A DNA stretch of 64,000 nucleotides from Frankia sp. AgB1.9. GTDB taxonomy: Bacteria > Actinomycetota > Actinomycetes > Frankiales > Frankiaceae. Below the pieces are notes generated by a model, which ran no database searches, was not told the DNA's origin, and saw only the letters and a list, made by a program, of their open reading frames with translations. Position numbers and translations under genes: made by a program. Location: NCBI RefSeq assembly GCF_016786355.1, contig NZ_JADWYX010000017.1:1-64000 (forward strand), read 5' to 3'. Positions 23,661-57,245 of the stretch are shown piece after piece; position 1 is the first letter of the stretch, and each line of letters starts with the position of its first letter.

Positions 23661-23735
23661 TGATCGCTATTTTGGCCCTCAAGTGGTTACGAGAAGACCC
23701 GATTCACGACCGCGTGAGGGCGAAAACGGCGATCA
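23661..23735. repeat. 75-bp intergenic palindrome, copy A
   Basis: Both ends read inward as TGATCGC: the left arm begins TGATCGCTATTTTGGCCCTC and the reverse of the right arm begins TGATCGCCGTTTTCGCCCTC. It lies between the dehydrogenase remnant and the convergent membrane gene. It is the same size and consensus as copies B, C and D. Confidence 0.8.
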
Positions 23736-23770
23736 CTCCGCCGGCCGATCTTCGCGGGCGCGGCGCCAGG

Positions 23771-24760
23771 TCAGAAGTAGGGCCCGGACATCGGCCGCAT
23801 CAGATGGTTCATCGCCTGTCGACGAAACTGTCGGTCGAACTCCGCCTCGTCCTCGGCCGCCGACGGCCAGAAGTAACCAAACCTGTCGACGCAGATTTTG
23901 GCGTGCGGGCGCCGGGCGCCGGCCAGGAAGAACGGCCAGGTCACCGCCCACATCACGGCAGAGGCCAGCAACGACCCGAGAAAGAAGGAGCCGAAGCCGC
24001 GGACGGACAGAGTCAGCAGCAGCGCCGTGCTGAACCACGAGGTGAACCACAGCATCAGTGCGTTCGCGACGACGGCGTAGGCCGCGGCCGGCGGAATCGT
24101 CACCCCCAACGGGACTCCGTAGAACGAGTACATGATGTTGATCTTCGCGAACAGCCAGCCCAACAGCGCGAACGTCAGGATCTCCCGCCACCAGGCGCCG
24201 GGCGCCAGTTCCGCCCCGCCGACGGCCAGAGTGACGAGCCACAGGGCGCCGGCGCAGCAGAGCACCACGCCGGCATGGCGCAACGAGGAAGAGGCCTGTC
24301 GCGGTCTGAAGAGCGTCCAGGCGACCGGCCGGAGCGTGGTCACGGTCGCGTAGGTCACGATCGCCACCACGACGAGCGTCCAGAAGTCCACGATGCGCAG
24401 CGGCAACCCGGCCTTTCGGCAAAGCCGTTCCGCCACCCACAGTTGCGGCAGGTACAACATGGCCGCCGCCGAGACGAGACCGAGCGGCGTCAGGACCAGC
24501 ACCCAGGCGCCCCCACCCCGGCCCTGACGGGAGAGCGTGGTGGCACGCCGGCTGACAAGCCACTCCAGACTGGCTGGCACCCTGATCGCGAGCCAGCAGA
24601 CGGCGCCGGCTAACAGCAGGGCGAGCGCCTGGCGACCTGCGGGGCCGTCCAGCCGAACACCGTCCACCAGCCTGGCGGATACCAGCACTCCGGCTCCGGC
24701 CAGGGCCAGCTGGACGGCGTCGTCAACTGCGTGCAGGAGCACACGCCGAATAGGGAACAT
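23771..24760 (-). CDS. Multi-pass membrane protein, unknown
   Basis: This is a 329-residue integral membrane protein with about eight hydrophobic helices, such as LALAGAGVLVSARLV, LALLLAGAVCWLAIRV, WTLVVVAIVTYATVTTL and ALLGWLFAKINIMYSF. The cytoplasmic C terminus is charged (EDEAEFDRQFRRQ). No transporter motif, binding site or enzyme signature is recognised. It is monocistronic, convergent with the dehydrogenase remnant and separated from it by palindrome copy A. Confidence 0.75.
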   Translation of the reverse strand: MFPIRRVLLHAVDDAVQLALAGAGVLVSARLVDGVRLDGPAGRQALALLLAGAVCWLAIRVPASLEWLVSRRATTLSRQGRGGGAWVLVLTPLGLVSAAAMLYLPQLWVAERLCRKAGLPLRIVDFWTLVVVAIVTYATVTTLRPVAWTLFRPRQASSSLRHAGVVLCCAGALWLVTLAVGGAELAPGAWWREILTFALLGWLFAKINIMYSFYGVPLGVTIPPAAAYAVVANALMLWFTSWFSTALLLTLSVRGFGSFFLGSLLASAVMWAVTWPFFLAGARRPHAKICVDRFGYFWPSAAEDEAEFDRQFRRQAMNHLMRPMSGPYF

Positions 24761-24852
24761 GCCGCGACATATATCACCATCTTATGGCGCAGAAGAACGT
24801 TTTGGGGCTTTATTTAACGTTCGTGTGCATTCTCCAGATCGGGCGGGGCGGG

Positions 24853-26328
24853 CTAGGGAACGAGCGTTTCGCCATGGACGGTCACGGCGCGACCAACCCA
24901 TTCCTCGGTGGTCATCGCGGTTACCACGTCCGACGCGGTGCTGGAGGCCACGGAGCGGGTCCCGCCGGCAAGGGTGACGACGGCGCACGCCCGTACCGGC
25001 CGCCCCTTCTCGCAGACCACGGTGAAGCCGGCCACCCGACCGGTGCCCGCACGGACGTCCTCGACGAGCGCGAGCGGCGTCTGGGCGGCTCGGACCTCGG
25101 CGGAGACGTCCTCGGCGCGGAAGCCGCCCGGCGGCGGGGCGGTGCTCCACAGCAGGCCGCCCTGCTTGGTGACCATGCCCGAGACACAGGTGACCAGCCC
25201 GTGGGCGCCCGGCTCGGCGGCCCGCAGCAGTTCGGCCATCTTCACCGTCGACTGGAAGGCGTAGTTGTTCAGCGGCCCGCCGGCGAAGGTCATGCCACCG
25301 GTGACGGTGAGGTCGGCCCGGCCGGCGAGGCCGAGCTCGCGCAGCTGCAGGCGGACCGCGGCCGGGAAACAGCTGTAGAGGTCGACGAGGTCGGCGTCGG
25401 CCGGCGCGACCCCGGTGACCTCCGTGAGCCGGCGGCCGACGGCGGCGAACCCGGGCGAGCGGGCCAGGTCGGGCCGCGCCGAGACCGGCGTCATGACGTT
25501 GGACTCGGCGGCCGCCACCGGGAAGACCCACCGGTCACGCGGCACCCCGAGCCGCAGGGCGGTCCGCGCCGAGCACAGCAGCAACGCCGCTCCCTGGTCG
25601 ACCCCGGCCCGGGAGCAGTGCGAACGGGTGTAGGGCCAGGACATCATCGGGTTGCGTTCCGAAGCGGCGAGATCCGCCGGGGTGACCGGATTGCGCGCCC
25701 AGGCGTCCTCGTTGCCGGCGGCGACCCGGGAGAAGCCGGCCCACAGCTCGGCGACCTCGGCGGCGTGCGCGGCGAGGCCGAGGCCGCCCGCCGCCCGCAG
25801 CGCTGACTCCAGCACCGCGTACTGCCAGACCGGCAGGTACAGGCCGCGCCGCACCTCCAGCCGGTGCAGGATGTCGTCGCTCGGGACCAGGACCTCGTCT
25901 GGGCCGGCGTTGTCAGGACCAGGGTCGCCCCCCTCACCCCGACCCTCGACACCGAGCCGGCCCGCGGTCAGCCGGACCCCGCCGGCGCTGTGCGCCGCCT
26001 CGGCCCCGAGCACCAGCACGACCTCGGCCCGGCCGGCCGCGACATCCAGACAGCCCCGCGTCACGAGGGTCTGCTGCAGCACGCCGAGCTCGGCGACGAC
26101 GGAATGGACCTTCGCCGCGCCGAACCGCGTGGCGATCTGACGGCCCGGGTTCGGGTCGTTCCAGGAGCCACGGGCGACGTACACCCGGTCGACGTGACCG
26201 AGCAGGCCCGGCACGCCCGCGTCGAGTGCCGCGGCCTCCGCGGCGGCCGCCATCAGTTCGATCGCGTCGGGCAGCCGGGCCGCGGCGGCGGCACCGACGA
26301 GAACGGGCGTGTCCGGCGGGACGCTCAC
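24853..26328 (-). CDS. Thiolase-like acetyl-CoA acetyltransferase
   Basis: This is a 491-residue thiolase-fold protein of the type found in actinobacterial acyl-CoA and sterol side-chain clusters. It shows the N-terminal thiolase region (VLGAEAAHSAGGVRLT), VDLYSCFPAAVRLQL, and TVTGGMTFAGGPLNNYAFQS near the active-site loop. It lacks the standard Cys-His-Cys arrangement of classical thiolases, as is common in this subgroup, so it may cleave branched or unusual substrates, or work with a DUF35 partner. Its start overlaps the stop of the acyl-CoA ligase gene (ATGA), so it is last in the leftward acyl-CoA operon. Confidence 0.82.
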   Translation of the reverse strand: MSVPPDTPVLVGAAAAARLPDAIELMAAAAEAAALDAGVPGLLGHVDRVYVARGSWNDPNPGRQIATRFGAAKVHSVVAELGVLQQTLVTRGCLDVAAGRAEVVLVLGAEAAHSAGGVRLTAGRLGVEGRGEGGDPGPDNAGPDEVLVPSDDILHRLEVRRGLYLPVWQYAVLESALRAAGGLGLAAHAAEVAELWAGFSRVAAGNEDAWARNPVTPADLAASERNPMMSWPYTRSHCSRAGVDQGAALLLCSARTALRLGVPRDRWVFPVAAAESNVMTPVSARPDLARSPGFAAVGRRLTEVTGVAPADADLVDLYSCFPAAVRLQLRELGLAGRADLTVTGGMTFAGGPLNNYAFQSTVKMAELLRAAEPGAHGLVTCVSGMVTKQGGLLWSTAPPPGGFRAEDVSAEVRAAQTPLALVEDVRAGTGRVAGFTVVCEKGRPVRACAVVTLAGGTRSVASSTASDVVTAMTTEEWVGRAVTVHGETLVP

Positions 26329-27944: not shown

Positions 27945-27967
27945 GGCTGCGCCTTCTCCGTCGTCGG

Positions 27968-33972: not shown

Positions 33973-35028
33973 GTGGAACGCGGTTACGCTGGTCGAGTGA
34001 CCTTGGCGGCGACGACCACAGCCGGCCCGGCCGCGCAGAACGACGCGGCCACGCGGCCGCGCCCGGACGGCGGGATTCCCGTCATCGACCTCGGGCCGTT
34101 CCTGGCCGGAGCGGACCCGGCGCCGGTGGTCGAGCGGATCGCCCGGGTCTGCACGTCGGTGAGCTTTCTGCAGGTCGTCGGGCATGGCATCGCGCCCGAG
34201 GCGTTCGACGCGGTCTACCGGGCGAACGACGCGCTGCTCGCGCTGCCCGACGTCGAGAAGGCCCGGCTCGGCTCCCCCGACGGTCACCCATGGCGCGGCC
34301 TGTCCACGATGCGTTCGCCGGACGGGGCACCGCTCGTGCACCGATTCCAGGTGTGCAACTACGAGGACGCGGCGACGGCGCTCGCCGCCGGGGTTCCGGC
34401 CCGGTATGGCGACTATTTCGCGCGGAACGTCTGGCCGGAGCAGGTCGAGGGCCTGCGGGCGTCCGTCCTGCGCTGCCTCGCCGAGATGAAGCGGGTCGGC
34501 GACGCGCTGATGGAGCTGTTCGCCAAGGCACTCGGGCTGCCGTCGGGGCATTTCGCGCCGATGCTCACCCATCCGGTGTCGGACCTGGCCGTGAACACCT
34601 ACCCGGCGCAGCCCGCGCGTGACTCGACGGAGCCGTCGCTGACGTTCCGGGAGCACACCGACTCCGGCATGCTGACCGTGCTGCACCAGCGCGGCGACTA
34701 CGCCGGCCTGCAGGTCCAGGACCTGGACGGCGCCTGGGTCACCGTACCCATCGACCCGGCCGCGCTGGTCATCAACATCGGCGACCTGATGTCCCGGTGG
34801 ACCAACGACCGCTGGCCGTCGACCCGCCACCGCGTCGTCGCCGCCGCCGACACCACCTCGACCCGCGCCTCGATCGCCACCTTCCACCTGCCGAACGTCG
34901 ACACGGTGATCGCCCCGCTGGAACCGTTCGTCGGCCCGGACGGCCCGCACTACGAGCCCGTCACCCCATACGTCTGGGAAGCGATGTTCCTCGCCAAATA
35001 CCGCCCCCCGGACCCGAGCAGCCCCTGA
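33973..35028 (+). CDS. 2OG-Fe(II) oxygenase, isopenicillin-N-synthase-like
   Basis: This is a 351-residue non-haem iron enzyme. The N-terminal DIOX_N region contains IPVIDLGPFLAG and LQVVGHGI. The 2-oxoglutarate/iron core has the HxD pair in REHTDSGMLTVL near 228-230, the distal His in PSTRHRVVAA near 286, and the Arg-x-Ser anchor in STRASIATFHLP. The variant family includes hydroxylases and desaturases of small molecules, so the substrate is not predictable. It starts at GTG 33973 or the GTG at 33997, which begins the alanine-rich leader. It is monocistronic and convergent with the thioesterase-like gene, separated by palindrome copy B. Confidence 0.9.
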   Translation: MERGYAGRVTLAATTTAGPAAQNDAATRPRPDGGIPVIDLGPFLAGADPAPVVERIARVCTSVSFLQVVGHGIAPEAFDAVYRANDALLALPDVEKARLGSPDGHPWRGLSTMRSPDGAPLVHRFQVCNYEDAATALAAGVPARYGDYFARNVWPEQVEGLRASVLRCLAEMKRVGDALMELFAKALGLPSGHFAPMLTHPVSDLAVNTYPAQPARDSTEPSLTFREHTDSGMLTVLHQRGDYAGLQVQDLDGAWVTVPIDPAALVINIGDLMSRWTNDRWPSTRHRVVAAADTTSTRASIATFHLPNVDTVIAPLEPFVGPDGPHYEPVTPYVWEAMFLAKYRPPDPSSP

Positions 35029-35125
35029 CCGCCTCCGGTCCACCTCGGAGCACACCGCCGAACCTTCACCCATGATCACGACTTCCCCCCGGGTTGGTCG
35101 TAGCGGAGCCCTGATCGCGTTACCT

Positions 35126-35199
35126 TGATCGCCGTCTTGGCCCTGTGGTGGTCGTGATGAGGACGTTCCGACGACCATCTCAGGGCCAAGGCGCGATCA
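35126..35199. repeat. 74-bp intergenic palindrome, copy B
   Basis: The left arm begins TGATCGCCGTCTTGGCCCTG and the right arm read in reverse begins TGATCGCGCCTTGGCCCTGA. It lies between the convergent oxygenase and thioesterase-like genes and belongs to the same family as copies A, C and D. Confidence 0.8.
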
Positions 35200-35224
35200 T
35201 GACCAGCGCGATGCCCGCCGCTGG

Positions 35225-36259
35225 TCAGGGGATGGAGACCGTGCGCTCGCCGGGCTCTGTGGTGGGCTGGGGGGTCCGGGGCGGCGGTCCGGCAGGCGGC
35301 AGGCCGTAAAGCGGTAGGCCAGCGAGCGATGGACTCGCGAGCGGTGGGCTCGCGAGCGGTGGGCTCGCGAGCGGTGGGCTCGAGAGCCGTGGGCTGGAGG
35401 GCGTCGGGCCCGGCGGCGGTGGCGGGGTCGGGGTGGCCAGGTGGCGGTGGACGAGGTTGGCCAGGTCCCAGTGGTGCGGGTCGGCGAAGAAGGAGCCGCG
35501 GTCGGTGGGGGTGACGGCCAGGTGCAGCTCGGCCACCGGGGCGCGTTCCCAGCCCAGGCAACGGGAGTCGTACAGGGCCAGCTGGGACGGCAGGCCCCAG
35601 TTGCTCGTCCGGTCAGCGGGGCGGGCCAGCACGACGGGCAGGTCCGACGGTCCGGGGCGGTAGGCGGCGTAGGCGCGCAACGCTGCGGTGTAGGTACTGA
35701 TCGAGGCGAGCAGGTAGTCCTCGTAGCGAGCCGGGTCGCGGGCGCCGAGCGCTCGGGCGATGCGGGCGCCCTGCTCGGACAGCGGCACCCCGTGGTCGAT
35801 GCCGCAACGGCAGGTGCCCTGCCAGAGGCACGGCAGGTGACGCATCCGGGCCAGCTCCCGGATCGCCAGCTGGGGGTTCGGCCGCGGCGGCGGCTGGCCC
35901 GGCCGCGGCAGGGCGGTGTCGAACAGGATCACGGGCGCGACCGGCTGGCCGATCCCGCGCAGCAGCCGGCCCAGCTCGTAGGCCAGGATGCCGCCGAAGC
36001 CGTAGCCGGCGAGCTGGAACGGCCCGCCCCACGGCTGGACGAGCAGCACGCCGGGCAGGAAGTAGGACGCCATCGCCCGGACGTCGTCCAGCGGTGGGCG
36101 GGCCCCGTCACGGCCCGGGAGATCCAGCCCGCGACACGGCATGGTGTCGATCAGCGCGCCGGCCAGGGGCTGTCCCGGATGCGGCGGGCCTTCCAGCCCG
36201 CCGACGAAGAACAGCGGCGGACGGCGGTCTCCCCGCCCGCCCAGGTGGGCCCGGCTCAT
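35225..36259 (-). CDS. Thioesterase-like alpha/beta hydrolase lacking the nucleophile
   Basis: This 344-residue protein resembles type II or NRPS/PKS-terminal thioesterases. PLFFVGGLEGPP forms the first strand and LDLPGRDGARPPL follows. The nucleophile elbow reads AGYGFGGILAYEL at residues 84-96, where family members have GxSxG, so Gly87 replaces the Ser. An Asp in VILFDTALP and His in ADPHHWDL remain. It is probably catalytically inactive or uses another mechanism. After about residue 275 comes a Pro-rich tail encoded by five 15-bp repeats. No synthetase gene is nearby; it follows the conservon operon through a coupled 17-codon frame whose stop overlaps its ATG. Confidence 0.78.
   Translation of the reverse strand: MSRAHLGGRGDRRPPLFFVGGLEGPPHPGQPLAGALIDTMPCRGLDLPGRDGARPPLDDVRAMASYFLPGVLLVQPWGGPFQLAGYGFGGILAYELGRLLRGIGQPVAPVILFDTALPRPGQPPPRPNPQLAIRELARMRHLPCLWQGTCRCGIDHGVPLSEQGARIARALGARDPARYEDYLLASISTYTAALRAYAAYRPGPSDLPVVLARPADRTSNWGLPSQLALYDSRCLGWERAPVAELHLAVTPTDRGSFFADPHHWDLANLVHRHLATPTPPPPPGPTPSSPRLSSPPLASPPLASPPLASPSLAGLPLYGLPPAGPPPRTPQPTTEPGERTVSIP
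35322..35396 (-). repeat. Five 15-bp tandem repeats in the thioesterase-like tail
   Basis: Units of 15 bp (GCGAGCGGTGGGCTC, three exact and two with changes) run head to tail from 35322 to 35396. On the coding strand they give SPPLA-type pentapeptide repeats. Slippage could vary the length of this linker between strains. Confidence 0.8.
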
Positions 36260-36309
36260 CCGTCCGGCAGCACGTCGTGGGTCGGGGTGTGCCGGACGCC
36301 GAAGCTCAT
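36256..36309 (-). CDS. Coupled 17-residue peptide frame
   Basis: This short frame encodes MSFGVRHTPTHDVLPDG. It has a good ribosome binding site (GGAGGG, 7 nt before the ATG), lies 41 nt after the conservon GTPase gene, and its TGA overlaps the ATG of the thioesterase-like gene. The arrangement implies translation and coupling. Whether the peptide is functional in its own right, or only a leader that sets the level of the downstream protein, cannot be told from sequence. Confidence 0.5.
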   Translation of the reverse strand: MSFGVRHTPTHDVLPDG

Positions 36310-36350
36310 CGGGTCAGCCCTCCGGGGCCGGGCAGGGGATGCGGCGCATG

Positions 36351-36992
36351 TCAGGTCCTTGTCTGCAGGGGTGCCCGAGCGGCGCGCGCCTCCTCGGCGA
36401 GGGTGGCGTCGAGGGCGTGGCGGACAAGAGCGATCAGGGCGGACCGGGAGGTGGACCGGCTGCGGGCATCCAGGGTGAGCACGGGATGGTCGATGTCCAG
36501 CGCCCCCCGGACGTCCTCGACGGGGTGCACGATCGCGCCCTCGAACTGGTTGACGGCGACGACGAACGGCACCCGCCGGTCCTCGAAGTAGTCGATCGCG
36601 GCGAAGCTGTCCGACAGCCGCCGGGTGTCGGCGAGCACGATCGCGCCGACGGCACCGAGCGTCAGCTCGTCCCACATGAACCAGAAACGGTCCTGGCCGG
36701 GGGTGCCGAACAGGTAGAGCACGACGTCCTGGTCGGGCAGCGTGATCCGGCCGAAGTCCATCGCCACGGTCGTCGTCGTCTTTCCCGACACCTGGGAGGC
36801 GTCGTCGACGCCGAGGGCGGCCGCCGTCATGTGGGCCTCGGTGGTCAGCGGGGGAATCTCGCTGACCGCGCCGACGAAGGTGGTCTTCCCCACCCCGAAG
36901 CCCCCGGCGACAATGATCTTCAGAGGGGTGGTCGTGGGCTCCTGGACGCTTTCGGAGCCGAAAGGCGCGGGGCTAGAGCCGCTGAAGTCCAT
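36351..36992 (-). CDS. Conservon Ras-like GTPase (CvnD type)
   Basis: This is a 213-residue small GTPase/ATP-GTP-binding protein. The P-loop AGGFGVGKTTFVGAVSEI is near residue 30, the switch region has TTTTVAMDFGRI, the DxxG-type motif is LFGTPGQDRFWFM and the base-recognition motif is AVNQFEGA (NQ instead of the usual NKxD). It is the fourth gene of a conservon, in which membrane kinase, Roadblock and DUF742 proteins form a signalling complex resembling eukaryotic G-protein systems. The ATG at 36992 lies inside the 3' end of the DUF742 gene (20-bp overlap), so the longer frame upstream is overlap. Confidence 0.92.
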   Translation of the reverse strand: MDFSGSSPAPFGSESVQEPTTTPLKIIVAGGFGVGKTTFVGAVSEIPPLTTEAHMTAAALGVDDASQVSGKTTTTVAMDFGRITLPDQDVVLYLFGTPGQDRFWFMWDELTLGAVGAIVLADTRRLSDSFAAIDYFEDRRVPFVVAVNQFEGAIVHPVEDVRGALDIDHPVLTLDARSRSTSRSALIALVRHALDATLAEEARAARAPLQTRT

Positions 36993-37353
36993 CGAGGACC
37001 TTTCGCAACAGGGTGGAGTCGGGGCGCCAGTCGGGGCGCTCGGGCCGGTGGACCGCGACGAGACCGTCGGCGGCCATGTCGGCGACCAGCACCTGCGCGA
37101 CGCCCAGGGGCAGGTCCAGGTGCGCCGAGATCTCCGCGACCGATTGCAGGTGGCGGCACAGGAAGGCGATGTCACGCTGCTCGGGGGGCATGCCGGGCGG
37201 CGGGTTACGCGCGGTGCTGACGCCGCGGCTGGTGGTCGCCACCAGCGCGACCAGCTCCAGCGGCGCGGTGGGCCGGGTCCGCCCGCCGGTGACGGCGTAC
37301 GGGCGGACGACCGGGCCCGCCTCGTCGTCGGGCAGTTCCTCGTCCCGGGTCAC
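36973..37353 (-). CDS. DUF742 protein (CvnC type)
   Basis: This is a 126-residue DUF742 protein with a winged-helix-like core: VVRPYAVTGGRTRP, then CRHLQSVAEISAHLDLPLGV and a final VADMAADGLVAVHRPE. In conservons DUF742 proteins bind the Roadblock protein and GTPase; the helix-turn-helix resemblance suggests possible nucleic-acid or protein contact. It starts 8 nt after the Roadblock stop and overlaps the GTPase gene by 20 bp. Confidence 0.92.
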   Translation of the reverse strand: MTRDEELPDDEAGPVVRPYAVTGGRTRPTAPLELVALVATTSRGVSTARNPPPGMPPEQRDIAFLCRHLQSVAEISAHLDLPLGVAQVLVADMAADGLVAVHRPERPDWRPDSTLLRKVLDGLQRL

Positions 37354-37361
37354 GGTGGCCT

Positions 37362-37754
37362 CTACGCGTGTGCGCGCATCGGCGGGGAGAGGACCTGCCC
37401 GGCACGGGTCACGAGCCGGGCCATCTCGAACGCGATGACCCCCGGATCCGCCGCCGGGCTCGCGGCGACCGCGAGGCAGGAGCCGTCGCCGATCGCGGAG
37501 ACGAACAGGTAGCCGCTGTCCATCTCGACGATCGTCTGGCGGACGTCACCGCCGTCCATGTACCGCGACGCGCCGAGCGCGAGGGAGCGGAAGCCGGAGG
37601 CGACGGCGGCGATGTGGTCGCCGCCCTCCCGGGTCAGCGCGGCCGAGCGGGCCAGCTGCAGCCCGTCGGCGGACAGCGCGACGGCCCAGTGGATGTCGAC
37701 GATGCGCCGCTCCAGGTCGTTGAGCAGGAAGTCGAGGTTACCGGTGGGTGGCAT
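37362..37754 (-). CDS. Roadblock/LC7 protein (CvnB type)
   Basis: This is a 130-residue Roadblock/LC7 domain protein. LDFLLNDLERRIVDIHWAVA and LSADGLQLARS form the first helix and hairpin, followed by HIAAVASGFRSLALGASRYM and the strand GYLFVSAIGDGSCLAVAASP. Such proteins act as GTPase regulators in conservons and MglB-like systems. The ATG at 37754 is chosen because it overlaps the 3' end of the kinase gene by 17 bp and gives the family's start; the longer frame is overlap. Confidence 0.93.
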   Translation of the reverse strand: MPPTGNLDFLLNDLERRIVDIHWAVALSADGLQLARSAALTREGGDHIAAVASGFRSLALGASRYMDGGDVRQTIVEMDSGYLFVSAIGDGSCLAVAASPAADPGVIAFEMARLVTRAGQVLSPPMRAHA

Positions 37755-40476
37755 CGCCGTTCCTTTCGTCGTCGCGGGGCGACCCGGCGGGGAGCCCTTG
37801 TTGGAAGCCAGCGCGGAAGGCCGTGACGAGTCGGCGGGCCTTCTCCGGGTCGGAGCCGCCGGCCCTGGGCCGGCTTCCGGCGACACCAACGGGGGCATAC
37901 CGGCCGCCGCGCAGCTCGGCGTTCAGGCTCTCGCCCCGGCTCCGTCGCGGTAGGTGCCCGACCCGCGGCTCGTCCTCCGGCCAGTCGTCCGGCACCGGCT
38001 CCTGCATCGACTCCGGCATCGGGGCGGCGGACCAGGCCACCGGCCGTTCGGGTCGCGGCGGCGCGACAGCGCGGGCCGGCAGCCCGGTCCGGCCCAGCTG
38101 CCAGGAGTGGGTGTCCGGGGCAGGGCCGCCGGCACGGGCGTCGTCTCGGTCCGGGTGGCGGACGGGTGGGGGCAGGAAGAAGCTGTCCCGGACCGCGGCC
38201 GGGACCAGCGGCCCGGTAGCCCGACGGCGGCCGAGGCCGTCGCCACCGCCGTCGTGGCCGTAGCCGCCGTCGTGGCCGTAGCCGCCGTCGTCGCCGTAGC
38301 CGCCGTCGTCGCCGGGGCTGGCAACGTGGCCGTAGTCGTAGCCGGCGTCGTGGCCGTAGTCGCTGTCGTGGGTGTACCGGGCATCGTGGCCGTACCCGGC
38401 GAAGTCGACCTCGCTGTCGGGATCAACGTGACCGCCGAGGTCAGCGCGAGGGTCACCGGGCGGCCCAGCGGCGACCGAGACGGCGACCGGCGGCTCGTCG
38501 TAGCCGGAGCCGACGACGTCGAGCCGGTCGAACGCATCCATCCGGGCAAGCGCTGCCCGCAGCGGTTCGTCGTCGGGTGGCCCAGCCGGGACGGGGGCGT
38601 CGGCCGCGGCGAGCACGCTCGCCGGCAGCGTCGCGACCGCGCAGACCCCGCCGTAGGCGCTGCGGGCCAGGGAGACGTCGATCCCGTGCCGGCGGGCGAG
38701 GTTCGCGACCACCCAGAGACCGAGCTTGTCCGCCTCCGACTCGGGGTGGAACGGCGGCGGGTCGGCCAGCCGCTCGTTGAGGCCGGCCATCGTGGCCGGC
38801 TCTATGCCGATGCCGCGGTCGGAGATCTCGACGACGATGCCCGCGCCGACCGAGCTGCCGGTCACGACGACCGGGGTCAGCTCGGGGGACATCTGGCAGG
38901 CGTTCTCGATGAGCTCGGCGAGCAGGTGGATGACGTCGCCGACCACCGGGCCGGCGATCCTGGTGTCGACGGTCGCGCTGGCCTCCACTCGGGTGTAGGC
39001 CTCGACCTCCGCCACGGCGGCCCGCATCGCGTCGATCAGCCTGACCGGCTGGCGGAACACCCGGCTGGGCTGTCCGCCGGACAGCGCGATCTGGCCCTCG
39101 ACCTCCCGGCGCATCCGGGTGGCCAGGTGGTCGAGGCGGAACAGCCGCTCGAGCATCTCGGGGTCCTGCTGGTCCCGTTCCAGGACGGTGATCAGCCTGA
39201 GCTGGCGGTGGATCAGGTTCTGGCTGCGACGAGCCAGGTTGTGCATCGACGAGGACAGCGAGTTCTGCGCGGCCACCTCGGTCGCCGCCAGCACCGCGGC
39301 GGCGTAGACGGAGCGCAGCGCCCGGGAGACCTCCCCGATCTCGTCCTCGGTGATCAGGTCGTCCCGTCCGCCCACGTCGTCGGCGTCCACCGGTCGCCGG
39401 GCCCGCAGCGCCGCCGTGACCGAGGGCAGCCGCTGCTCGGCGACGGTGACCGCGTCCGCGCGCAGGACCCGCAGCTGCCGCACGAGCCGCCGTGTGATCA
39501 CCATGGACACGGCGATCGCGAGCACCATGATCGCGGCCGCGCCGCCGCCGACGATCCCGGCGCGCAGCCGGGCGGCCGAGACCAGCGAGCTGCTCTGGTC
39601 GGCCAGGCTCACGTTGAGCTGCCCCTCGACGGCCCGCAGCTGGTCGATCTTCGAGTTGACGTTGCCGAGCCAGACGGCGGGCACGACGTCGATGGGTCTG
39701 CCGGCCGCGGCCTCGGCCAGGACCTGGTCGCGCAGGGCGGCGACCGGGCCGACGGTCGGACCGACGCGCTGGTCGTAGAGGCGGCGCTGGTCGTCGCTGG
39801 CGGCCGCCTCGAACTCGCCCAGCCAGGCCGCCTCGGCGCCGGTCGCGGTCCGGATGCGGCCGACGTTGTCGGGAATCTGGTCGTGCAGGAACAGGGTGAG
39901 CGAGACGTAGCCACGCTGTTGCGCGGTCTGCTCGGCCACGGCGCTGATCGCGGCCAGCGCGGTCGCCGTGCGCACGAGTGGCGAGGTCGCGGTGCCGAGG
40001 CCGATCTGGGCCGAGGTCACCCCCAGCCACGCGCCGACGATGTCGTTGTAGGCGTCCGAGATGGGGCCGATGGTGGCGGTCCGGGCGTCGACCTGGCCGC
40101 GCAGTGTGGGTAGCTGGCCCATCTGGCCCGCGGCGGCGGTCAGGGCGGTCCGCAGCCGCTGGTCGTCGGGTGCGCCGAGCGCGGCGGCCGTGACTTCGCG
40201 GTAGGCCACGTCGACCGGGCCACGCGCGGCCGCGGTGTCGCTCTGCATCGCTATGTAGCCGGAGGCGACGAACGACGACGTGGCGTAACGCTCCTGGGCG
40301 AGCGCGCGGACCAGCGAGTTCACCTTGACCGTCAGCTGGGCCGCGGTGCGGGTGCGCCCGGCCTCGTGCGCCGCGTGCACCTGGCCGACCACCAGGGCCA
40401 CGCTCAGCCCGGCCACCGCCAGCAACGGCACGACCAGGGCGGCAGCGAGCCGATATCGGACCGGCCAGCGCTCCAT
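37738..40476 (-). CDS. NIT-domain sensor kinase (CvnA type)
   Basis: This is a 912-residue membrane sensor. A transmembrane helix at 9-30 is followed by an extracellular NIT (nitrate/sulfonate sensing) helical domain to about 300, a second helix (AIMVLAIAVSMVITRRLV), a HAMP-like region and a dimerisation segment SLSSSMHNLARRSQNLIHRQ. The HATPase domain has LAELIENACQMSPELTPVVV, SDRGIGIE and DKLGLWVVANLA. The usual His phospho-acceptor position in the dimer helix is occupied by asparagine or arginine, as in other conservon kinases. The C-terminal 220 residues are disordered, with a YGHDGG-type repeat at about 38255-38320. It heads the conservon operon and shares a promoter region with the LuxR-type gene. 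Confidence 0.9.
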   Translation of the reverse strand: MERWPVRYRLAAALVVPLLAVAGLSVALVVGQVHAAHEAGRTRTAAQLTVKVNSLVRALAQERYATSSFVASGYIAMQSDTAAARGPVDVAYREVTAAALGAPDDQRLRTALTAAAGQMGQLPTLRGQVDARTATIGPISDAYNDIVGAWLGVTSAQIGLGTATSPLVRTATALAAISAVAEQTAQQRGYVSLTLFLHDQIPDNVGRIRTATGAEAAWLGEFEAAASDDQRRLYDQRVGPTVGPVAALRDQVLAEAAAGRPIDVVPAVWLGNVNSKIDQLRAVEGQLNVSLADQSSSLVSAARLRAGIVGGGAAAIMVLAIAVSMVITRRLVRQLRVLRADAVTVAEQRLPSVTAALRARRPVDADDVGGRDDLITEDEIGEVSRALRSVYAAAVLAATEVAAQNSLSSSMHNLARRSQNLIHRQLRLITVLERDQQDPEMLERLFRLDHLATRMRREVEGQIALSGGQPSRVFRQPVRLIDAMRAAVAEVEAYTRVEASATVDTRIAGPVVGDVIHLLAELIENACQMSPELTPVVVTGSSVGAGIVVEISDRGIGIEPATMAGLNERLADPPPFHPESEADKLGLWVVANLARRHGIDVSLARSAYGGVCAVATLPASVLAAADAPVPAGPPDDEPLRAALARMDAFDRLDVVGSGYDEPPVAVSVAAGPPGDPRADLGGHVDPDSEVDFAGYGHDARYTHDSDYGHDAGYDYGHVASPGDDGGYGDDGGYGHDGGYGHDGGGDGLGRRRATGPLVPAAVRDSFFLPPPVRHPDRDDARAGGPAPDTHSWQLGRTGLPARAVAPPRPERPVAWSAAPMPESMQEPVPDDWPEDEPRVGHLPRRSRGESLNAELRGGRYAPVGVAGSRPRAGGSDPEKARRLVTAFRAGFQQGLPAGSPRDDERNGDATHR

Positions 40477-41989: not shown

Positions 41990-42027
41990 CGCCCTGTCGG
42001 CCGCGAGTCCCTTACGGCCGCGGGTCC

Positions 42028-42978: not shown

Positions 42979-43584
42979 ATGTATGTGCCCAGGGTGAACA
43001 AGGTCGAGGACGAAGCCCTGGTCCGGGGTTTCGTCGCCGAGTGCGGAGCCGCGACGCTCGTGACGGTCGGCCCGGACGGGAGTCCGGACGCGACGCTGCT
43101 GCCGGTCCTCTGGAAGTCCGACCAGGTCGTCGGCCACCTGGCCCGCGCCAACGACCACTGGCGCCGGATGCGGGACGACACCCCCGGGCTGGTCGTGGTG
43201 ACCGGGCCGCAGGCCTACGTGTCGCCGTCCTGGTACCCGAGCAAGGCGCAGGACGGTCGGGTCGTGCCGACCTGGAACTACTCGGCGGCTCAGCTGCGCG
43301 GCACGATCACCGTGCACGACGACCCGGACTGGCTGCGCGGCCTCGTCACCCGGCTGACCGAGCGGCACGAGTCCGGACGGGCCGATCCGTGGGCGGTGGG
43401 GGATGCGCCCGAGCGGTTCATCGACGGCAACCTCCGGGCCATCGTCGGAGTCTGCCTGCACGTCACGTCCGTCGAGGCGAAGGCCAAATGGAGCCAGAAC
43501 CGGTCCGACGCCGACCGGGCCGGCGTTCTCGCGGGCCTTACCGACCCGGCCGCCCAGGCCCGGATGAGGTCCGCCTCGCTGTGA
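42979..43584 (+). CDS. PaiB-like FMN-binding protein
   Basis: This is a 201-residue FMN-binding split-barrel protein of the PaiB group. MYVPRVNKVEDEALVRGFV, GPQAYVSPSWYPSK and VVPTWNYSAAQLRG are the family motifs that bind FMN. In Bacillus PaiB is a negative regulator of sporulation and protease genes; many homologues are flavin- or haem-linked enzymes, so the regulatory role is not assured. The ATG at 42979 gives the conserved MYVPR start; an upstream Met at 42940 is unlikely. Confidence 0.9.
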   Translation: MYVPRVNKVEDEALVRGFVAECGAATLVTVGPDGSPDATLLPVLWKSDQVVGHLARANDHWRRMRDDTPGLVVVTGPQAYVSPSWYPSKAQDGRVVPTWNYSAAQLRGTITVHDDPDWLRGLVTRLTERHESGRADPWAVGDAPERFIDGNLRAIVGVCLHVTSVEAKAKWSQNRSDADRAGVLAGLTDPAAQARMRSASL

Positions 43585-43640
43585 GGACCGGTCCAGCGAA
43601 TCCGCAGGCCGGCGCCGACCCTCGCCGACGCCGATTTCCC

Positions 43641-43703
43641 TACCAAGTTGGCGATCATCGGCGGCTGTACCCGGCCCACACCACGATGATCGTGGACTGG
43701 GTA
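43641..43703. repeat. 63-bp intergenic palindrome, copy 1
   Basis: The element begins TACCAAGTTGGCGATCATCG and ends so that its reverse begins TACCCAGTCCACGATCATCG. Length is 63 bp, equal to copy 2 downstream. The word TGATCGCC near the arm ends is shared with the 75-bp family. Confidence 0.75.
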
Positions 43704-43744
43704 TGGAAACTGTCGGTCTGCGCCTGATTCGCGCCTTTTATCCA

Positions 43745-43807
43745 TACCAGGTTCGCGATCATGGCCGGTCACGCGGCCTGGATCAGCCGAAGATCGCCGT
43801 CTTGGTA
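43745..43807. repeat. 63-bp intergenic palindrome, copy 2
   Basis: The left arm begins TACCAGGTTCGCGATCATGG and the reverse of the right arm begins TACCAAGACGGCGATCTTCG. It lies 41 bp after copy 1, in the gap between the PaiB-like gene and the SnoaL-like gene. Confidence 0.75.
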
Positions 43808-44051
43808 TCGGATTGGGTCCGGCCACCCCGAAGAGATCATGGAGGGCCCGTTCACTCCCGGACGGGCCGCGCGGCCGCCGACCAGAGGGCGGGCGCAGGC
43901 GCCCTCTGCTCCGAGAGCAAGTGCTTACTAAGTTCTTGTCACGGCCTCGGGGCGGACCTAGTGTGTCCCGTGCCTCATCCGCCGCGGCCGCAGGCTGGCT
44001 GGCCGGCGGGCTGGGGCGGCGGGGCCGCCGAGCGACGTGAGGGGACACATC

Positions 44052-44459
44052 ATGATCGAGGACAAGGTCGTCACCGCGTTGCAGCGGCACTGGGAGGACG
44101 GGTTCAACCAGTACGACCTCGACCTGGTGATGGAGCCCGTCGACCGCGACGTGGTGTTCAGCTCGCCGTTCGTCCCGCGGCTGACAGGCGACCCGGAGAA
44201 GGTGACCATCGAGGGCTACGACGCCTTCCGGTCCTACATCGACGACTCGATGCGCCGCGTCCCCGACATCCGCTACTCGATCGACGCGTCCTTCGTGAGC
44301 ACCCAGACGGTTGTCTTCGTCTACACCTGCCGGTTCACCGACGGACAGGTGAAGACCGGCGCCGACTCCATCCGCCTCAACAGGGACGGGAAGATCGTCG
44401 AGTGGCGCTGCCACTACTCGTTCGACCCGGAAGCCCTGGACAGCCTCATCCAGGACTGA
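44052..44459 (+). CDS. SnoaL-like/NTF2-fold protein
   Basis: This is a 135-residue protein of the SnoaL-like nuclear-transport-factor-2 fold. An N-terminal helix pair (VVTALQRHWEDGFNQYDLDL) is followed by strands and VRFTDGQVK-like segments; VFSSPFVPRL and EGYDAFRSYIDDSMRRVPDI are typical. Members bind or isomerise small polyketide or steroid-like ligands. The start at 44052 is favoured by GAGGGG upstream and by the domain boundary. The truncated haemoglobin follows after 24 nt. Confidence 0.82.
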   Translation: MIEDKVVTALQRHWEDGFNQYDLDLVMEPVDRDVVFSSPFVPRLTGDPEKVTIEGYDAFRSYIDDSMRRVPDIRYSIDASFVSTQTVVFVYTCRFTDGQVKTGADSIRLNRDGKIVEWRCHYSFDPEALDSLIQD

Positions 44460-44483
44460 CCACGGGGCTGGCATTCTTGGCCC

Positions 44484-44927
44484 ATGCGCAGCGTGTACGA
44501 GGAAGCGGGCGGCGACGAGGGGCTGCGGCGCCTGGCGGATGCCTGGCATCGCCGGGTCATGGCCGATGAGGTCGTGAGCCACGCCTTCAGCCATGGATTC
44601 CGCCCTGACCACCTCGAACGGCTCGCCAGCTACTGGGCCGAGGCGCTCGGCGGGCCTACCTCGTACTCCGACCGGTACGGGGACGAGACCCTCGTTGTGC
44701 GGCTCCACAGCGGCAACGGCCCGCATGACGAGATGGACCGCCGAGCAATCGACTGCTTCGACGAGGCCCTGGCGGATGCCGGTCTGACCGCCGAGCCGCT
44801 CCGCCAGGTTCTGCGCGACTACTTCGCCTGGGCCACCACGACGACGATGAGCCGCTACCACGACTCCGGCGACGACGTCCCCGCCGGCCTGACGATCCCG
44901 CGCTGGTCGTGGGCCGGCCTCGTCTAG
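44484..44927 (+). CDS. Group II truncated haemoglobin
   Basis: This is a 147-residue truncated-globin-like protein. HRRVMADEVVSHAFSHGFRP and HLERLASYWAEALGG form the first helices, and LHSGNGPHDEMDRRAIDCFD carries the probable proximal His, then a long C-terminal tail to WSWAGLV. The group handles oxygen, nitric oxide or redox chemistry. It follows the SnoaL-like gene closely, so the two probably form an operon. It is convergent with the polymerase gene across palindrome copy C. Confidence 0.87.
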   Translation: MRSVYEEAGGDEGLRRLADAWHRRVMADEVVSHAFSHGFRPDHLERLASYWAEALGGPTSYSDRYGDETLVVRLHSGNGPHDEMDRRAIDCFDEALADAGLTAEPLRQVLRDYFAWATTTTMSRYHDSGDDVPAGLTIPRWSWAGLV

Positions 44928-44948
44928 GACCCGGTACCGCGACCGCCT

Positions 44949-45023
44949 TGATCGCGGTTTGGGCCCTGGGATGGTCGTGCCGGGCGCGGTTCTACGACCA
45001 CCCCAGGGCTCAAATGGCGATCA
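44949..45023. repeat. 75-bp intergenic palindrome, copy C
   Basis: The left arm begins TGATCGCGGTTTGGGCCCTG and the right arm in reverse begins TGATCGCCATTTGAGCCCTG. It lies between the convergent globin and DNA polymerase-like genes. Confidence 0.8.
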
Positions 45024-45077
45024 TGGAGACCCGGAACCGGGCGAACGTCGCCGGAGACGGCACTGGCCGGCCCGTCG

Positions 45078-47022
45078 TCAGGGCTTCGCGTCGGACCAGC
45101 GGCTGATGACGGCGATGTCGGCGACGAACCGGACCGCGCTGCCGGCTGCCCAGTAGGCGGCGGTCGCGTCGAGAGCCCGGTGGGTGGCGGCGACGGCGGC
45201 CTCGGCGGTCGGGACCGGGACCTGGAGCAGCAGCTCGTCGTGCAGGCACAGGACGATCGTGCCGCCCAGCGGGATCAGCGCCTGGCGGACCGTCACGGCC
45301 CAGGCCTTGAACAGCTCGGCGGCCGCGCCCTGGACGACGGCGTTGCGGGCGAACCGGCCGTAGGCCGCCGCCGCGCGGCCGATGTCCCCGTCCGCGTCGG
45401 CCGGTAGCGCCCGCAGCGGGATCCGCCGGCCGCCGAACGTCCGCAGCGGCGCGGCGGGTGCGGCGCCGAGCGCGGCCGAGCGCCCGGCGGCGTCCGCCGC
45501 GTCGAGGTACGCGAGCGCGACGCCATAGGTCTCACGCATCTGGCGCAACGCCTGGCCGGCCGCGCCGGTGGTCTGGCCGTACATCGCGGCGAGGACCGCG
45601 ACCTTGGCGGTCGGCCGGTCGACCCCGAGCCGGGCGGCGACCGGGGCGTACAGGTCGTCCTGCCGGGTCGCCCTGGTCAGCTCCGGGTCGCCGGAGACGA
45701 CGGCGAGCACCCTCGGCTCGATCTGGCCCAGGTCGGCGCGCACGAACCGGTGGCCGGGCTCGGCCACGACGGGCGACCCGCATCTCGGCGGGCAGGTTGT
45801 GCAGCCCGGCGTCGGCCGTCATGCGGCCGGCCGCGCCGTCGCTGCCGTGCCACCGGCCGCGCAGCCGGCCGTCGGCCCCGACGTGGGTGGCGAGCCACCG
45901 ATGCCCGTAGGTTGTCGCGATCCGCTCCGCCTTGCGCCAGGCGAGCAGCTCGTCGATGACCGGATGAGCGGCGCTGAGGGCACGCAGCCGGCCGGATCGC
46001 GTGTCGGGCACGTCGATCCCGACCGCCGCGAGCGCGGCCCGGACCGACGCCGGGTTACGCAGGTCGACCGATGAGCTCAGCTGGCGCAGGACCGGGGCGT
46101 CCCGGGCTCGCCTGGCCGCCGCCTCCCCCGCGTCGCCGACCGGCGGCGGGCCGATGATCTCGGTGATGGTCGCCGTCGCCGTCGGCCGGTCGACCGGCAG
46201 GCCGTCGCGTTCCAGCTCACGGGCCAGCACCTCGGCCGCGGACTCGGCGCGTGCCGTCAGCAGCGCCAGCGGCAGCCGCGCGGGCCTCCCCCGTGGGTCC
46301 GGCAGCGCGCTCAACGCCTGCTCCTGCGCCGCCATCGTGACCAGCGCGAGCCGCGCGAAGCGGGCCGCCCGCGCCAGCCGGACGTCTGGCCCACCGCCGG
46401 CGTCGGCGCCGGCGCCCAACGTCTCGTCGACCCAGCCGAGCCGAAGCTGCCCGTCTGGCCCGACCGGGTCGTCGACGTCGCCCGCGTCGTCCGGCTGCTC
46501 GACCATCGCCAGCAGGTCGAGCTGGCCGTCGCCGCGGGCCCGTTGGGGCGGCGGCGGAACCGGCAGGCCGCGGGTGGCCGCCCAGACAGCGCCCGGGTCG
46601 TCACGGTGCCCGCCCCGCAGGATCCGGTGCACGGCGGCGAGGTCCCAGCTCAGTGCCGGGCCACGTTGGTCGGACTCGCGCCACCCGCCAGCCAGCGGCG
46701 ACCCGGCGCCGCGCGCCGACCACCACACCCAGCGCGGGCCGATCGCCCCCTCCACGTCGGTCAGCACCTCCGCCGGATCGCCGTATCCGGCCCAGCCACC
46801 CTCTCCGAACGCGAGCGCCACCCCGACACCTGGAACAGCGACCACCGCGACGGCCGTGCCCGGTCCTACGCCCTCCGCCCGCAGCGCGCTCGCAGGGCCA
46901 CCCGGCAGACCTGGCCGGGCTGGCGAAGCTGCCCTGGCCGGACTGTCTGGCCGGGCTGGCCTGGCCGGCCGGGCCGGATCGTCAGCCGTCCAGGACGAGA
47001 CCACACGGTCATGGTGCCCCAC
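45078..47022 (-). pseudogene. DNA polymerase I-like gene broken by a frameshift
   Basis: Together two frames make one actinobacterial bifunctional exonuclease/polymerase-like protein. The first frame runs from 47022 through an exonuclease-like region and ends its homology at LHNLPAEMR. One base later, in another frame, it continues from 45767 with the polymerase core: motif A FVRADLGQIEPRVLAVV, motif B AKVAVLAAMYGQTTG, and motif C VLCLHDELLLQVP with the catalytic Asp-Glu. The shift falls at about 45768-45774, equivalent to one inserted C. Motifs on both sides are intact, so this is a recent mutation or a sequencing error; there is no slippery heptamer there. The start at 47022 is uncertain. 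Confidence 0.8.
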
Positions 47023-55246: not shown

Positions 55247-55247
55247 A

Positions 55248-55736
55248 ATGGAACCCTGGGAAGACCTGGTGGAAGCCGAGAACGCGTTCATTGCTGCGAG
55301 GATGCGACTATTCAAGGTCGACATCAAATCCCAGCTTCGGCAGGCGCTCGGAACTCGGCGAGGGCGGGCTACCGCATTGCGGGTACTACACGAAGGTCCA
55401 GAATCACTAACGATGGACCTTATCGACGATGTCTTTGATGCGGCGATCGGCGCCACCGATGACATCCTATTTGCGCGGGACGCTCTTCGTCGCGTCGACC
55501 CGGGGTGGCTGGCTATCGCATTGCGCCCCCTCATCGCGAGACATTTCATGGAGCCGACAGAGCCAATCGATTGGCTCGACTACAGATGCGTGGCCGACCT
55601 CCTAGATGATCTCAAGCAGATCAACCTTCTCAACATCTTCATCAAGTGGGCATCAGAGGTCGATGACCCCGAGGTACAGGACGTTGTGGACGACTATCGC
55701 GACCTACCCGGCCAGGAGAACTCGGAGAGCCTGTAG
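55248..55736 (+). CDS. Probable immunity protein for the RHS toxin
   Basis: This is a 162-residue acidic, helical protein (ENAFIAARMRLFKVDIKSQL, LDYRCVADLLDDLKQINLLN, IKWASEVDDPEVQDVVDDYR) with no signal peptide. Its ATG is 1 nt after the toxin stop, and its lower GC matches the toxin tip. Toxin tip and immunity gene are normally exchanged as one cassette, so identity is inferred from position, size and composition. No immunity family recognised. Confidence 0.75.
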   Translation: MEPWEDLVEAENAFIAARMRLFKVDIKSQLRQALGTRRGRATALRVLHEGPESLTMDLIDDVFDAAIGATDDILFARDALRRVDPGWLAIALRPLIARHFMEPTEPIDWLDYRCVADLLDDLKQINLLNIFIKWASEVDDPEVQDVVDDYRDLPGQENSESL

Positions 55737-55851
55737 CAACACACAGGCCAAGCCTCGACGAGTTCGCTGCGGTAGTGAACGTAGTCGAAGAATCGCTTCG
55801 ACTGGTCGACATGATCTTGTGTCGCTGCCGGTGCGTCGAGACGTGCCGGGT

Positions 55852-56787
55852 TTAGGGGACAGCGCAGGTGGAACGGGAGCAGCGGCGTGGAGAGGATGAC
55901 CAACCGGCGCGTTGGAGGAGGATCGCGACCTCTGCGGCGACATCGCAGGGGGTTTCGAAGATCGCGGCCGAGCCGTAGCGCAGTGGCTGGTCGCCGACCA
56001 GTATCGCCTCGTTGTCGGCGCGACGGTCACGCGTCTGCGCATGAGCTGGATGGGCTATCGCGCCGTCGAGTTCCACTCGAAGGCGGTACTCGCGGTAGAA
56101 CACGTCGTCCCGCCGGTGGCCTCCTCTACGAGGTCGAGCAGCCTGGCGTTCGGCGGAAGGCAGAGCGTGGGCTCGCTCGACGTCACGCAGGTACCTGACT
56201 TCCAGCAACGAATGGCAGCCCAACTCGACGTCTTGCGCTGCGGCCGCCAGTGGGGCCCGCCAGCGCATCTTCGGCCGTACGTCCATCGTGCCTTTAAGAC
56301 GCTCGGCGGTCGTGAGCCGGGCACCGACAGCTCGCGCCAACCAGCTGATCGCCTCGTCGAGATTCCGGGAACATTGGGTCAGGTCGACGACAGCCTCTTC
56401 GAATCGGCTCTGCGGCGGACTTTTCACCGGATGCCGGGCCAAAGTGCTTCGATGGCTCCGATGCATCCGAACTCCGGCGACCGGGCGAGGGCTACGCGGA
56501 TGCGGCACAGTGACATGGATAATTGGACTTGGTCGGTCTACTAGCCCCGTCAATTCTGCCACCGTGTAGTGGCTGAGCATCGCTCCCTCGCCAGCCTGCA
56601 GCACGGCCGCCCAGAGCTGGGCTTCGCGGGGTAGCGGGCCACTAAACGTGGCATAAATCCCTGGGAAAACACACGACCAGCGACCCCCGGAAATATTGGC
56701 CCTAATATGACCCCGAGTGACCCCACTCCCGAGCGCCTGTTCCAGACTGATGATTCCGCATTGCAACCCGACCAGCTCCTCGACCAT
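55852..56787 (-). CDS. AbiEi-like antitoxin/DUF559 nuclease-fold protein
   Basis: This is a 311-residue protein of a type common in actinobacteria. The N-terminal winged helix (VEELVGLQCGIISLEQALGS, then LSHYTVAELTGLVDR) resembles the AbiEi antitoxin domain. The C-terminal part resembles the DUF559/very-short-patch-repair endonuclease fold: RLRVELDGAIAHPA, RDRRADNEAILVGDQPLRYG and CDVAAEVAILLQRAGW. No AbiEii nucleotidyltransferase toxin gene is adjacent. The ATG at 56787 fits the domain; the longer frame to 57138 runs through a large hairpin and is rejected. Confidence 0.78.
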   Translation of the reverse strand: MVEELVGLQCGIISLEQALGSGVTRGHIRANISGGRWSCVFPGIYATFSGPLPREAQLWAAVLQAGEGAMLSHYTVAELTGLVDRPSPIIHVTVPHPRSPRPVAGVRMHRSHRSTLARHPVKSPPQSRFEEAVVDLTQCSRNLDEAISWLARAVGARLTTAERLKGTMDVRPKMRWRAPLAAAAQDVELGCHSLLEVRYLRDVERAHALPSAERQAARPRRGGHRRDDVFYREYRLRVELDGAIAHPAHAQTRDRRADNEAILVGDQPLRYGSAAIFETPCDVAAEVAILLQRAGWSSSPRRCSRSTCAVP

Positions 56788-56870
56788 CCACCCAGAATGC
56801 TTGTCTTCCACCGCCGATACAACCAAGCAGGCCAATCTGTGGAAACCGCGCCCCCTGTGGACAGGCCGGC

Positions 56871-56928
56871 TTCGTGATCGGGTGGATTCGGGGTCGCCAG
56901 GGCTACCCCGAATCCACCCGATCACGAA
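56871..56928. repeat. Perfect 24-bp stem-loop
   Basis: The arms 56871-56894 and 56905-56928 are perfectly complementary over 24 bp (starting TTCGTGATCGGGTGGATTCG), with a 10-nt loop. It lies 84 bp upstream of the AbiEi/DUF559-like gene start. The conservation of both arms implies selection or a recent insertion. Confidence 0.8.
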
Positions 56929-57170
56929 AATGCCAGCCGGCGTTGCTCTGCGGTCGGTGGCCAGGTCGGTCACGCAGCCCATCCAATCGGTCGGCCAACA
57001 ACCAGTCGCTCGGCCTAACCCGGCCGCTCGACCCAGAACCGGCCGTTCGGCCCAATTCGGCCGCCCGGCGCGTTCGATCGATCGGCCCACTGCGCCGGAG
57101 CCCGAGGTTCGTGTGGAGCGAGACCTCGAGTGCCGCATCTGACGAGGTCGGCCTCGTCCCTAGACCGGCA

Positions 57171-57245
57171 AGATCGCTGTTTTCGCCCTCGCGTGGCTGT
57201 AACTAGGACGGTTTTGTGACCACGTGAGAGCCAAAACGGCGATCA
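57171..57245. repeat. 75-bp intergenic palindrome, copy D
   Basis: The left arm reads AGATCGCTGTTTTCGCCCTC and the reverse of the right arm begins TGATCGCCGTTTTGGCTCTC. Unlike copies A-C it lies between two leftward genes, just after the EccC-like gene's 3' end and beyond the AbiEi-like gene's upstream hairpin. Confidence 0.75.

Follow-up and report, generated by a model that had tools for sequence, protein, structure and literature searches.

The persistence of REPINs depends on the transposase RAYT, and the miniature inverted-repeat transposable elements (MITEs) of DDE insertion sequences, such as those of the IS5 family, use 4-bp CTAG/YTAR targets. REPINs are doublets of repetitive extragenic palindromic (REP) sequences that form hairpins; their 16-mers are 71 bp or 110 bp apart with a spacer length that is seemingly critical, compensatory changes in the hairpin are common, and a tie to the RAYT transposase is general (Bertels and Rainey 2011, PMC3116915). 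The main text of a further survey reports REP dimers that are inserted in palindromes, the GTAG-15 and CGTC-1 families, and gives counts of REPs according to whether the genes on either side are convergent, divergent or unidirectional (PMC3733652). Here we describe a family of palindromic elements of 75 bp, four copies of which lie in a stretch of 64,000 nucleotides of Frankia sp. AgB1.9 (contig NZ_JADWYX010000017.1, positions 1 to 64,000; below, the window). The element consists of two inverted ends of about 19 nt (TGATCGCCGTTTTGGCCCT) and a sequence-free middle, at a near-invariant total length of 75 bp. The explanation that we favour, with reasonable but not high confidence, is that the family is a REPIN-like non-autonomous mobile element, recognised as a pair of ends by a candidate protein other than a detectable Y1/RAYT.

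The original prediction, made from the window only, had described four palindromes of 75, 74, 75 and 75 bp and had held that such a set does not arise by chance; the four exist at the positions it gave, and a search of the whole genome (G000, 9.79 Mb) bears out the second point. The 19-nt arm has 341+334 matches in this genome at no more than three mismatches, against 1+1 for the reversed-pattern control, and the family thus comprises hundreds of copies, far more than four. A sample of 864 kb, composed of forty 20-kb stretches, contiguous but not random, and the window, yielded forty copies, of which 39 measure exactly 75 bp and the other one 74. Extrapolation from this sample gives a genome total of about 450 copies, which may be high since the window was given with the observation itself, nine other sampled contigs were picked among those listed with an arm match and the density may be overestimated; half the arm count gives about 340. 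The lengths of 153 distinct copies from the genus, a set that comes partly from search-selected loci, are 75 bp in 145 cases, 74 in five, 76 in two and 77 in one, as found by a caller that allowed 60-95 bp and that misses any copy in which an arm is broken, since it needs both arms without indels. Over 72 copies the consensus reads C-W-TGATCGCCGTTTTGGCCCTCnGGTGGTCGTGA-(variable centre)-TCACGACCACCnGAGGGCCAAAACGGCGATCA-W-G, in which arm positions 2-7, 9-12, 15-19 and 24-26 are conserved, and positions 8, 13-14 and 20-23 as well as the centre are variable. When the contiguous sample was scanned with a position-weight matrix, 79 of the 80 arms with a score of at least 14 were located in called elements and the remaining one, which is unpaired, belongs to a truncated copy; no arm reached this score in the reversed control. 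Subfamilies have some 35-43 bp of flank in common on each side.

Comparison with the sister species G001, at a background identity of about 92-96%, shows that occupancy differs at about half of the comparable sites while the length of the copies is kept. From 23 copies of G000 that were tried, 21 had syntenic flanks in G001; eleven of these are shared and ten have no intact counterpart, with a length difference of 142-196 bp at eight of the ten sites and of 49 and 546 bp at the other two. At the cleanest site, C211:68508, G001 lacks the unit entirely and has a single CCAG where G000 has CGAG-unit-CTAC; the alignment of a further genome of the genus, G002, is poor at this site. Among the eleven orthologous core pairs no length change was found, while the alignment of the 45-bp flanks needed 57 gap events (the comparison includes one swapped pair, and the fixed size of the flank windows inflates the gap count), and the number of substitutions per site rises from 0.09 in the outer 19 positions to 0.18 in the middle and 0.31 in the centre. 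At C165:65506 (L045:5506-5580) and its orthologous site G001:4795619, the flanks are similar and the cores belong to different subfamilies (45/75 identical), which suggests that the core was replaced in situ, by gene conversion or re-insertion. The density of copies is uneven, with ten in 80 kb of C165 and five in 400 kb of G001c. The large copy number, the subfamilies, the presence or absence at orthologous sites and the near-constant length together give good support to the earlier proposal of a mobile or selected unit of the REP/MITE type. Two local observations were made in C211. At about 7335-7375 of L059 a strong inverted repeat, GGGGTGGTCCGTTCCC...GGGAACGGACCACCCC, lies just past an element and is retained in G001 and G002, both of which lack the element at this site; it is an ordinary terminator-like hairpin beside a copy. 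At about 18500-18600 of L062 a short tandem repeat, CCTTGGCCCTGGCCCGG, occurs just upstream of an element and is mostly missing in the alignments with G001 and G002.

The element can form a hairpin, and RNA folds of six copies were 5.8-10.7 standard deviations (sd) below those of shuffled sequences. Pairing between the arms, on the other hand, is no better than expected: it amounts to 83.6% over 72 aligned copies against 83.2% in shuffles (98 of 500), and over 145 copies 1406 letters match, where permutation of whole right arms leads one to expect 1385 (P 0.17). Position by position, covariation is absent at 8-14, positive at 20, 21, 22 and 24 (z 6.7, 3.7, 5.0 and 3.5) and negative at 27-30 (z -3.0, -5.2, -2.4 and -2.9); subfamily descent can produce either sign. 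Since the pairing is mixed, the centre varies and the length is constant, it seems to be the sequence of the outer ends that is conserved, in each independently of the other, and what is kept is the distance between them. At core positions 27-30 (alignment columns 29-32) the arms differ from each other beyond chance, so that the element has an orientation. No Rfam family matched above its gathering score in the window.

The distribution of the family is patchy. A covariance model detected it in all eight of the genus's genomes searched, with numbers of matches that range from 5 to at least 127, in 0/15 genomes of other genera of the same bacterial family, and, out of 14 further genomes of the class, only in G041. 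When 393 genomes that represent 137 genera of the class were scanned with a gap-tolerant pattern of 65-85 bp total length, seven matched, namely six of the eight of the genus and again G041, which is the Sporichthyaceae metagenome-assembled genome (MAG) PMV_1_maxbin.008, as identical match positions show. This MAG holds 29 copies, 28 of them at 75 bp and one at 74. Their outer sequence is TGATCGC(C/T)GTTT...AAAC(G/A)GCGATCA and their inner block, CATGATC...GATCATG, is different from that in the genus; because the consensus differs, these elements are not contamination from the genus studied. As a length control, the same loose pattern gave 11 matches in viral contigs, none at the length of the family. 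An exact two-arm scan across genome contigs yielded nothing; a looser one returned nine stretches of one Sporichthyaceae MAG and two isolated matches, in Andreprevotia and in an Oscillospiraceae MAG, which are of other length and were taken as chance. A search of plasmids for the element was negative.

Fourteen copies in the MAG could be placed: six lie in divergent gaps, four in tandem gaps, two in convergent gaps and two at contig edges, in loci whose called gaps number 16 of the divergent, 53 of the tandem and 6 of the convergent type. The centres of the MAG elements repeatedly carry CGCAGGTCG / ACCTGCAGGT, and in most of them, in contrast to the genus studied, arm position 13 switches jointly in the two arms (TTTT/AAAA or TTTC/GAAA), which may reflect subfamily descent or pairing. 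Palindromic flanks that could have served as insertion targets were not found around genus copies without outer arms (0.30 against 0.33 in the control, positions 3-12); in the MAG there is a weak indication (0.42 against 0.37), with one copy at 12/12. The flanks of that kind at L229:122-196, where the 12 bases on each side are fully complementary and of a sequence unlike that at other copies, give a hint of insertion into a pre-existing palindrome.

Part of the family is contained in a larger unit of about 153 bp. By their flanks, 40 of 111 copies cluster in one group with a common outer unit, and the 16 units in which both outer arms are clear measure 150-156 bp and have imperfect inverted ends of about 30 bp with a CTAG-like start. 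Among the 64 cores of G000 and G001, both outer arms were recognised (above the 99th percentile of background) in 22, one in 20 and none in 22. The outer end has 47 matches genome-wide, against 0 for the control, and 30 of these, read as loci, represent 27 distinct units (three were hit at both ends), of which 22 have an intact core and five a broken or missing one. On 128 flanks, the tetranucleotide CTAG was counted 22 times within the zone 30-44 nt outside the core; its frequency in the sequence as a whole predicts 0.7 occurrences there, and that in more distant flank bins about 1.7. A stop codon lies 24-45 nt from the core in 25 cases, seven of which read CTAG; the globin stop beside copy 3 also reads CTAG, at 21 nt from the core. 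An early idea that cores never decay turned out to be too strong, in view of the single unpaired arm, the half core at the copy 3 site in G001 and the five incomplete units.

With respect to genes, the positions of the copies are strongly biased, as judged with a simple codon-usage gene caller that was written for this analysis. The claim that copies avoid genes extends from the window to the sample, in which 0/40 copies of G000 are inside called genes and two gene calls overlap a copy by 3 bp. Location mainly between convergent genes, which was also expected, holds for G000, where 24 of the 40 copies are in convergent gaps, 14 in tandem gaps and 2 in divergent gaps (copy 4 being tallied as convergent although its left neighbour is 1.9 kb off), and is weaker in G001 (9/24). 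Expressed as occupied gaps, the figures for G000 are 24/110 convergent, 14/386 tandem and 2/111 divergent (Fisher p 9e-10), and those for G001 are 9/106, 12/318 and 3/106 (p 0.04). In gaps of 40-150 bp net length, both genomes taken together, copies occupy 21/89 convergent, 1/204 tandem and 0/26 divergent gaps, and of the 14 copies in tandem gaps of G000, 13 are closer to the upstream stop than to the next start. No gap holding two copies was seen, against 8.5 expected under length-weighted placement in G000 and G001; the notion of one copy per gap is nevertheless weakened by L009, L195 and L205, where neighbouring copies are 163-392 bp apart, and by the possibility that some long gaps contain genes which the caller missed.

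A mechanism for a REPIN-like mobile element can be envisaged as follows. The two ends would be recognised together by one trans-acting protein, the geometry of which would set the spacing, and this protein, which is no Y1/RAYT detectable in G000, would copy or move the element. Part of the family may spread, or may once have spread, inside the unit of about 153 bp with CTAG-like ends. Copies would then survive chiefly downstream of stop codons and in convergent gaps, being tolerated at gene 3' ends, because insertion elsewhere is proposed to break genes or promoters; a preference for CTAG targets, which often contain a TAG stop, may add to the positional bias. Avoidance of genes and promoters together with the CTAG preference can explain much of this bias, as a role in termination could too. 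A more specific version seems to us less likely than not: the family would be a RAYT-independent counterpart of REPINs, a two-ended element of 75 bp that is moved and policed for length by an enzyme recognising both 19-nt ends at once, and that occurs in two or more families of actinobacteria, between which the outer ends and the length are the same and the inner blocks exchanged, with a core that is replaceable in situ.

Several results weigh against a mobile element of this type. A RAYT-like transposase, which the original prediction had expected to be worth looking for, was not found: at E 0.001 the Y1_Tnp/RAYT family (PF01797) has no match in the whole of G000, while the control was positive in 5/14 genomes. 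None of the 10/18 called genes scanned at the five outer-end units without an intact core matches a transposase family, and the 15 genes that separate close copies in G000 all match ordinary Pfam families and include no transposase; the six corresponding genes of G001 lie outside this set. An insertion sequence with the outer ends was likewise not seen in the loci read for 30/47 outer-end hits, of which only the five units without an intact core were scanned for transposases. Target duplications around the 75-bp core were found in 0/72 copies at every length from 2 to 10 (3.0 were expected at length 2); an apparent 1-bp duplication (A/A or T/T at -1/+1, 66/145 copies) goes with flank asymmetry, and no claim is based on it. 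Identical 4-mers at both ends of complete outer units are absent (0/16), though the ends are CTAG-like. Moreover, the indel at differing sites often spans most of the intergenic stretch and not the exact element, for which reason insertion and deletion are not always separable, and the 75-bp core is not inviolable, as the 5/27 outer-end units with a broken or missing core demonstrate.

The earlier suggestion of a bidirectional terminator provides the most obvious alternative, in which the element is selected by the host as a transcription terminator or stabiliser of mRNA 3' ends, with a hairpin that ends both converging transcripts. Its position and hairpin strength allow this: copies are enriched in convergent gaps in G000 and more weakly in G001, the core lies nearer to the upstream stop than to the next start in 13/14 tandem cases, the folded copies are far more stable than shuffles, and middle positions 20, 21, 22 and 24 covary. 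A terminator would require neither a conserved 19-nt sequence nor a constant length of 75 bp, however, and the variable positions of the outer arm (8-14) lack covariation, positions 27-30 behave in the opposite way and overall pairing is not above shuffles. A scan of the region 34900-45200 produced no U-tract terminator call at copies 2 and 3, and the Sporichthyaceae copies are as readily found in divergent gaps. Furthermore, the hairpins in convergent gaps of 30-400 bp have a median of -33.9 kcal/mol in the 42 gaps without a copy and of -33.8 kcal/mol in the 20 gaps with one, and because copy-free gaps have equally strong hairpins the element is not needed there. A terminator role of the element is possible; as the explanation of the family we regard it as rather unlikely.

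The strict length with a free centre and the independent conservation of the two outer arms would also suit a site in double-stranded DNA at which a protein that organises the chromosome or regulates genes binds the two arms in a fixed helical phase, 75 bp being about seven helical turns; such a site would have been spread early by duplication and would now be kept for its function. The recurrence of the same length and the same outer 12-13 nt with a different inner block in another family fits this as well, as does the fading of the outer arms of the larger unit around cores that stay (22/64 cores have neither arm). Still, about half of the comparable sites were lost or gained between species that are some 92-96% identical, the density is uneven, 0/15 genomes of other genera of the bacterial family have a match, and we know of no binding protein, so that this explanation seems improbable to us. 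The graded loss of outer arms, the broken or missing cores in 5/27 units, the half core at the copy 3 site in G001 and the lack of an autonomous partner in the genes scanned could finally mean that the copies are inert remains of a MITE that targeted CTAG and spread in a past burst, without present activity or function. That 0/11 orthologous core pairs changed length while their flanks did, and that in the contiguous sample no arm scoring at least 14 occurs outside called elements except the one in a truncated copy, makes such a relic very improbable.

The copies in the window and the features around them are collected in Table 1. The neighbouring genes named for three of the copies largely hold according to protein-family matches, and copies 1, 2 and 3 do lie in convergent gaps, as had been claimed; the end sequences given earlier are essentially right except that copy 4 starts with AGATC and not with TGATC, and an extra partial TGATCGCGTTACC is indeed present ahead of copy 2. 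The right arm of copy 2 is apparently one base short, and at the copy 3 site G001 retains only the right half of the core. The membrane-side neighbour of copy 1 has only a sub-threshold match to a holin with four transmembrane segments. Copy 4 is situated 118 bp past the stop of an FtsK/SpoIIIE protein, its neighbour on the other side being uncertain. This protein (57364-62124, 1586 aa) has matches to FHA, to FtsK/SpoIIIE and to further AAA-type ATPases. The adjoining region 55247-57363 (about 2.1 kb) contains no called gene, and an open frame of 428 aa in it (55852-57138) is without a Pfam match. A perfect palindrome with 24-bp arms (TTCGTGATCGGGTGGATTCGGGGT...) is present at 56871-56928, at 243 bp from copy 4; since it has no other copy in the sampled sequence, where one half match with five mismatches was found, it is a separate single hairpin.

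Table 1 Palindromic copies in the window and parts of the larger unit around them
Feature	Position	Strand	Context
Palindromic element copy 1, 75 bp	23661..23735	.	Between convergent genes for an FMN-dehydrogenase fragment and a probable membrane protein
Copy 2, 74 bp	35126..35199	.	Between convergent 2OG-oxygenase and thioesterase genes; absent from sister species G001
Copy 3, 75 bp	44949..45023	.	Between convergent globin and DNA polymerase A genes
Copy 4, 75 bp	57171..57245	.	Common to sister species G001
Right outer arm of the ~153-bp unit around copy 3	45024..45066	.	Ends ...GGCACTGG
CTAG containing the TAG stop of the globin gene	44924..44927	+	Candidate left end or target of the larger unit, with a left arm that appears shortened
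Complete 153-bp outer unit around copy 4	57127..57279	.	CGAGTGCCGCAT ... ACCCGGCACTGG

No description of this family was found in the open-access literature searched (subscription journals and preprints being outside the scope), four arm stretches of 17-20 nt do not occur in it, and the main text of a 2009 paper on Frankia insertion sequences contains neither 'MITE' nor 'palindrom'. Compared with IS5-type MITEs, the 153-bp unit is similar in its imperfect inverted ends of about 30 bp and its CTAG-like edge 4-mers; it differs in that no insertion sequence with these ends was present in the loci read, that left and right 4-mers do not agree, and that many cores have no outer arm (22/64) or only one (20). 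With the GTAG-15 and CGTC-1 REP dimers the family has in common that a paired-palindrome core is nested in a larger inverted-repeat unit, whereas tags, sequences and hosts differ, and neither Frankia nor actinobacteria are mentioned in the main text of that survey (PMC3733652). The resemblance is closest to REPINs (PMC3116915), in the inverted conserved ends at a fixed distance, the variable spacer of constrained length and the hundreds of extragenic copies that form hairpins. Compensatory changes are called common there, and the family studied shows no clear general excess of them, the pattern by position being mixed. Its ends, moreover, are not palindromes tagged GTAG/CGTC in the 72-copy consensus, a weak GCC-N5-GGC inside the arm of the genus being absent from the MAG arms; no Y1/RAYT was found in G000; and no gap of the two-genome sample holds two copies, in spite of the close neighbours at L009, L195 and L205. 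If the explanation that we favour is true, the same build and abundance without a detectable RAYT, and a length that is conserved across families, would mean that another class of enzyme has produced, or maintains, the same solution.

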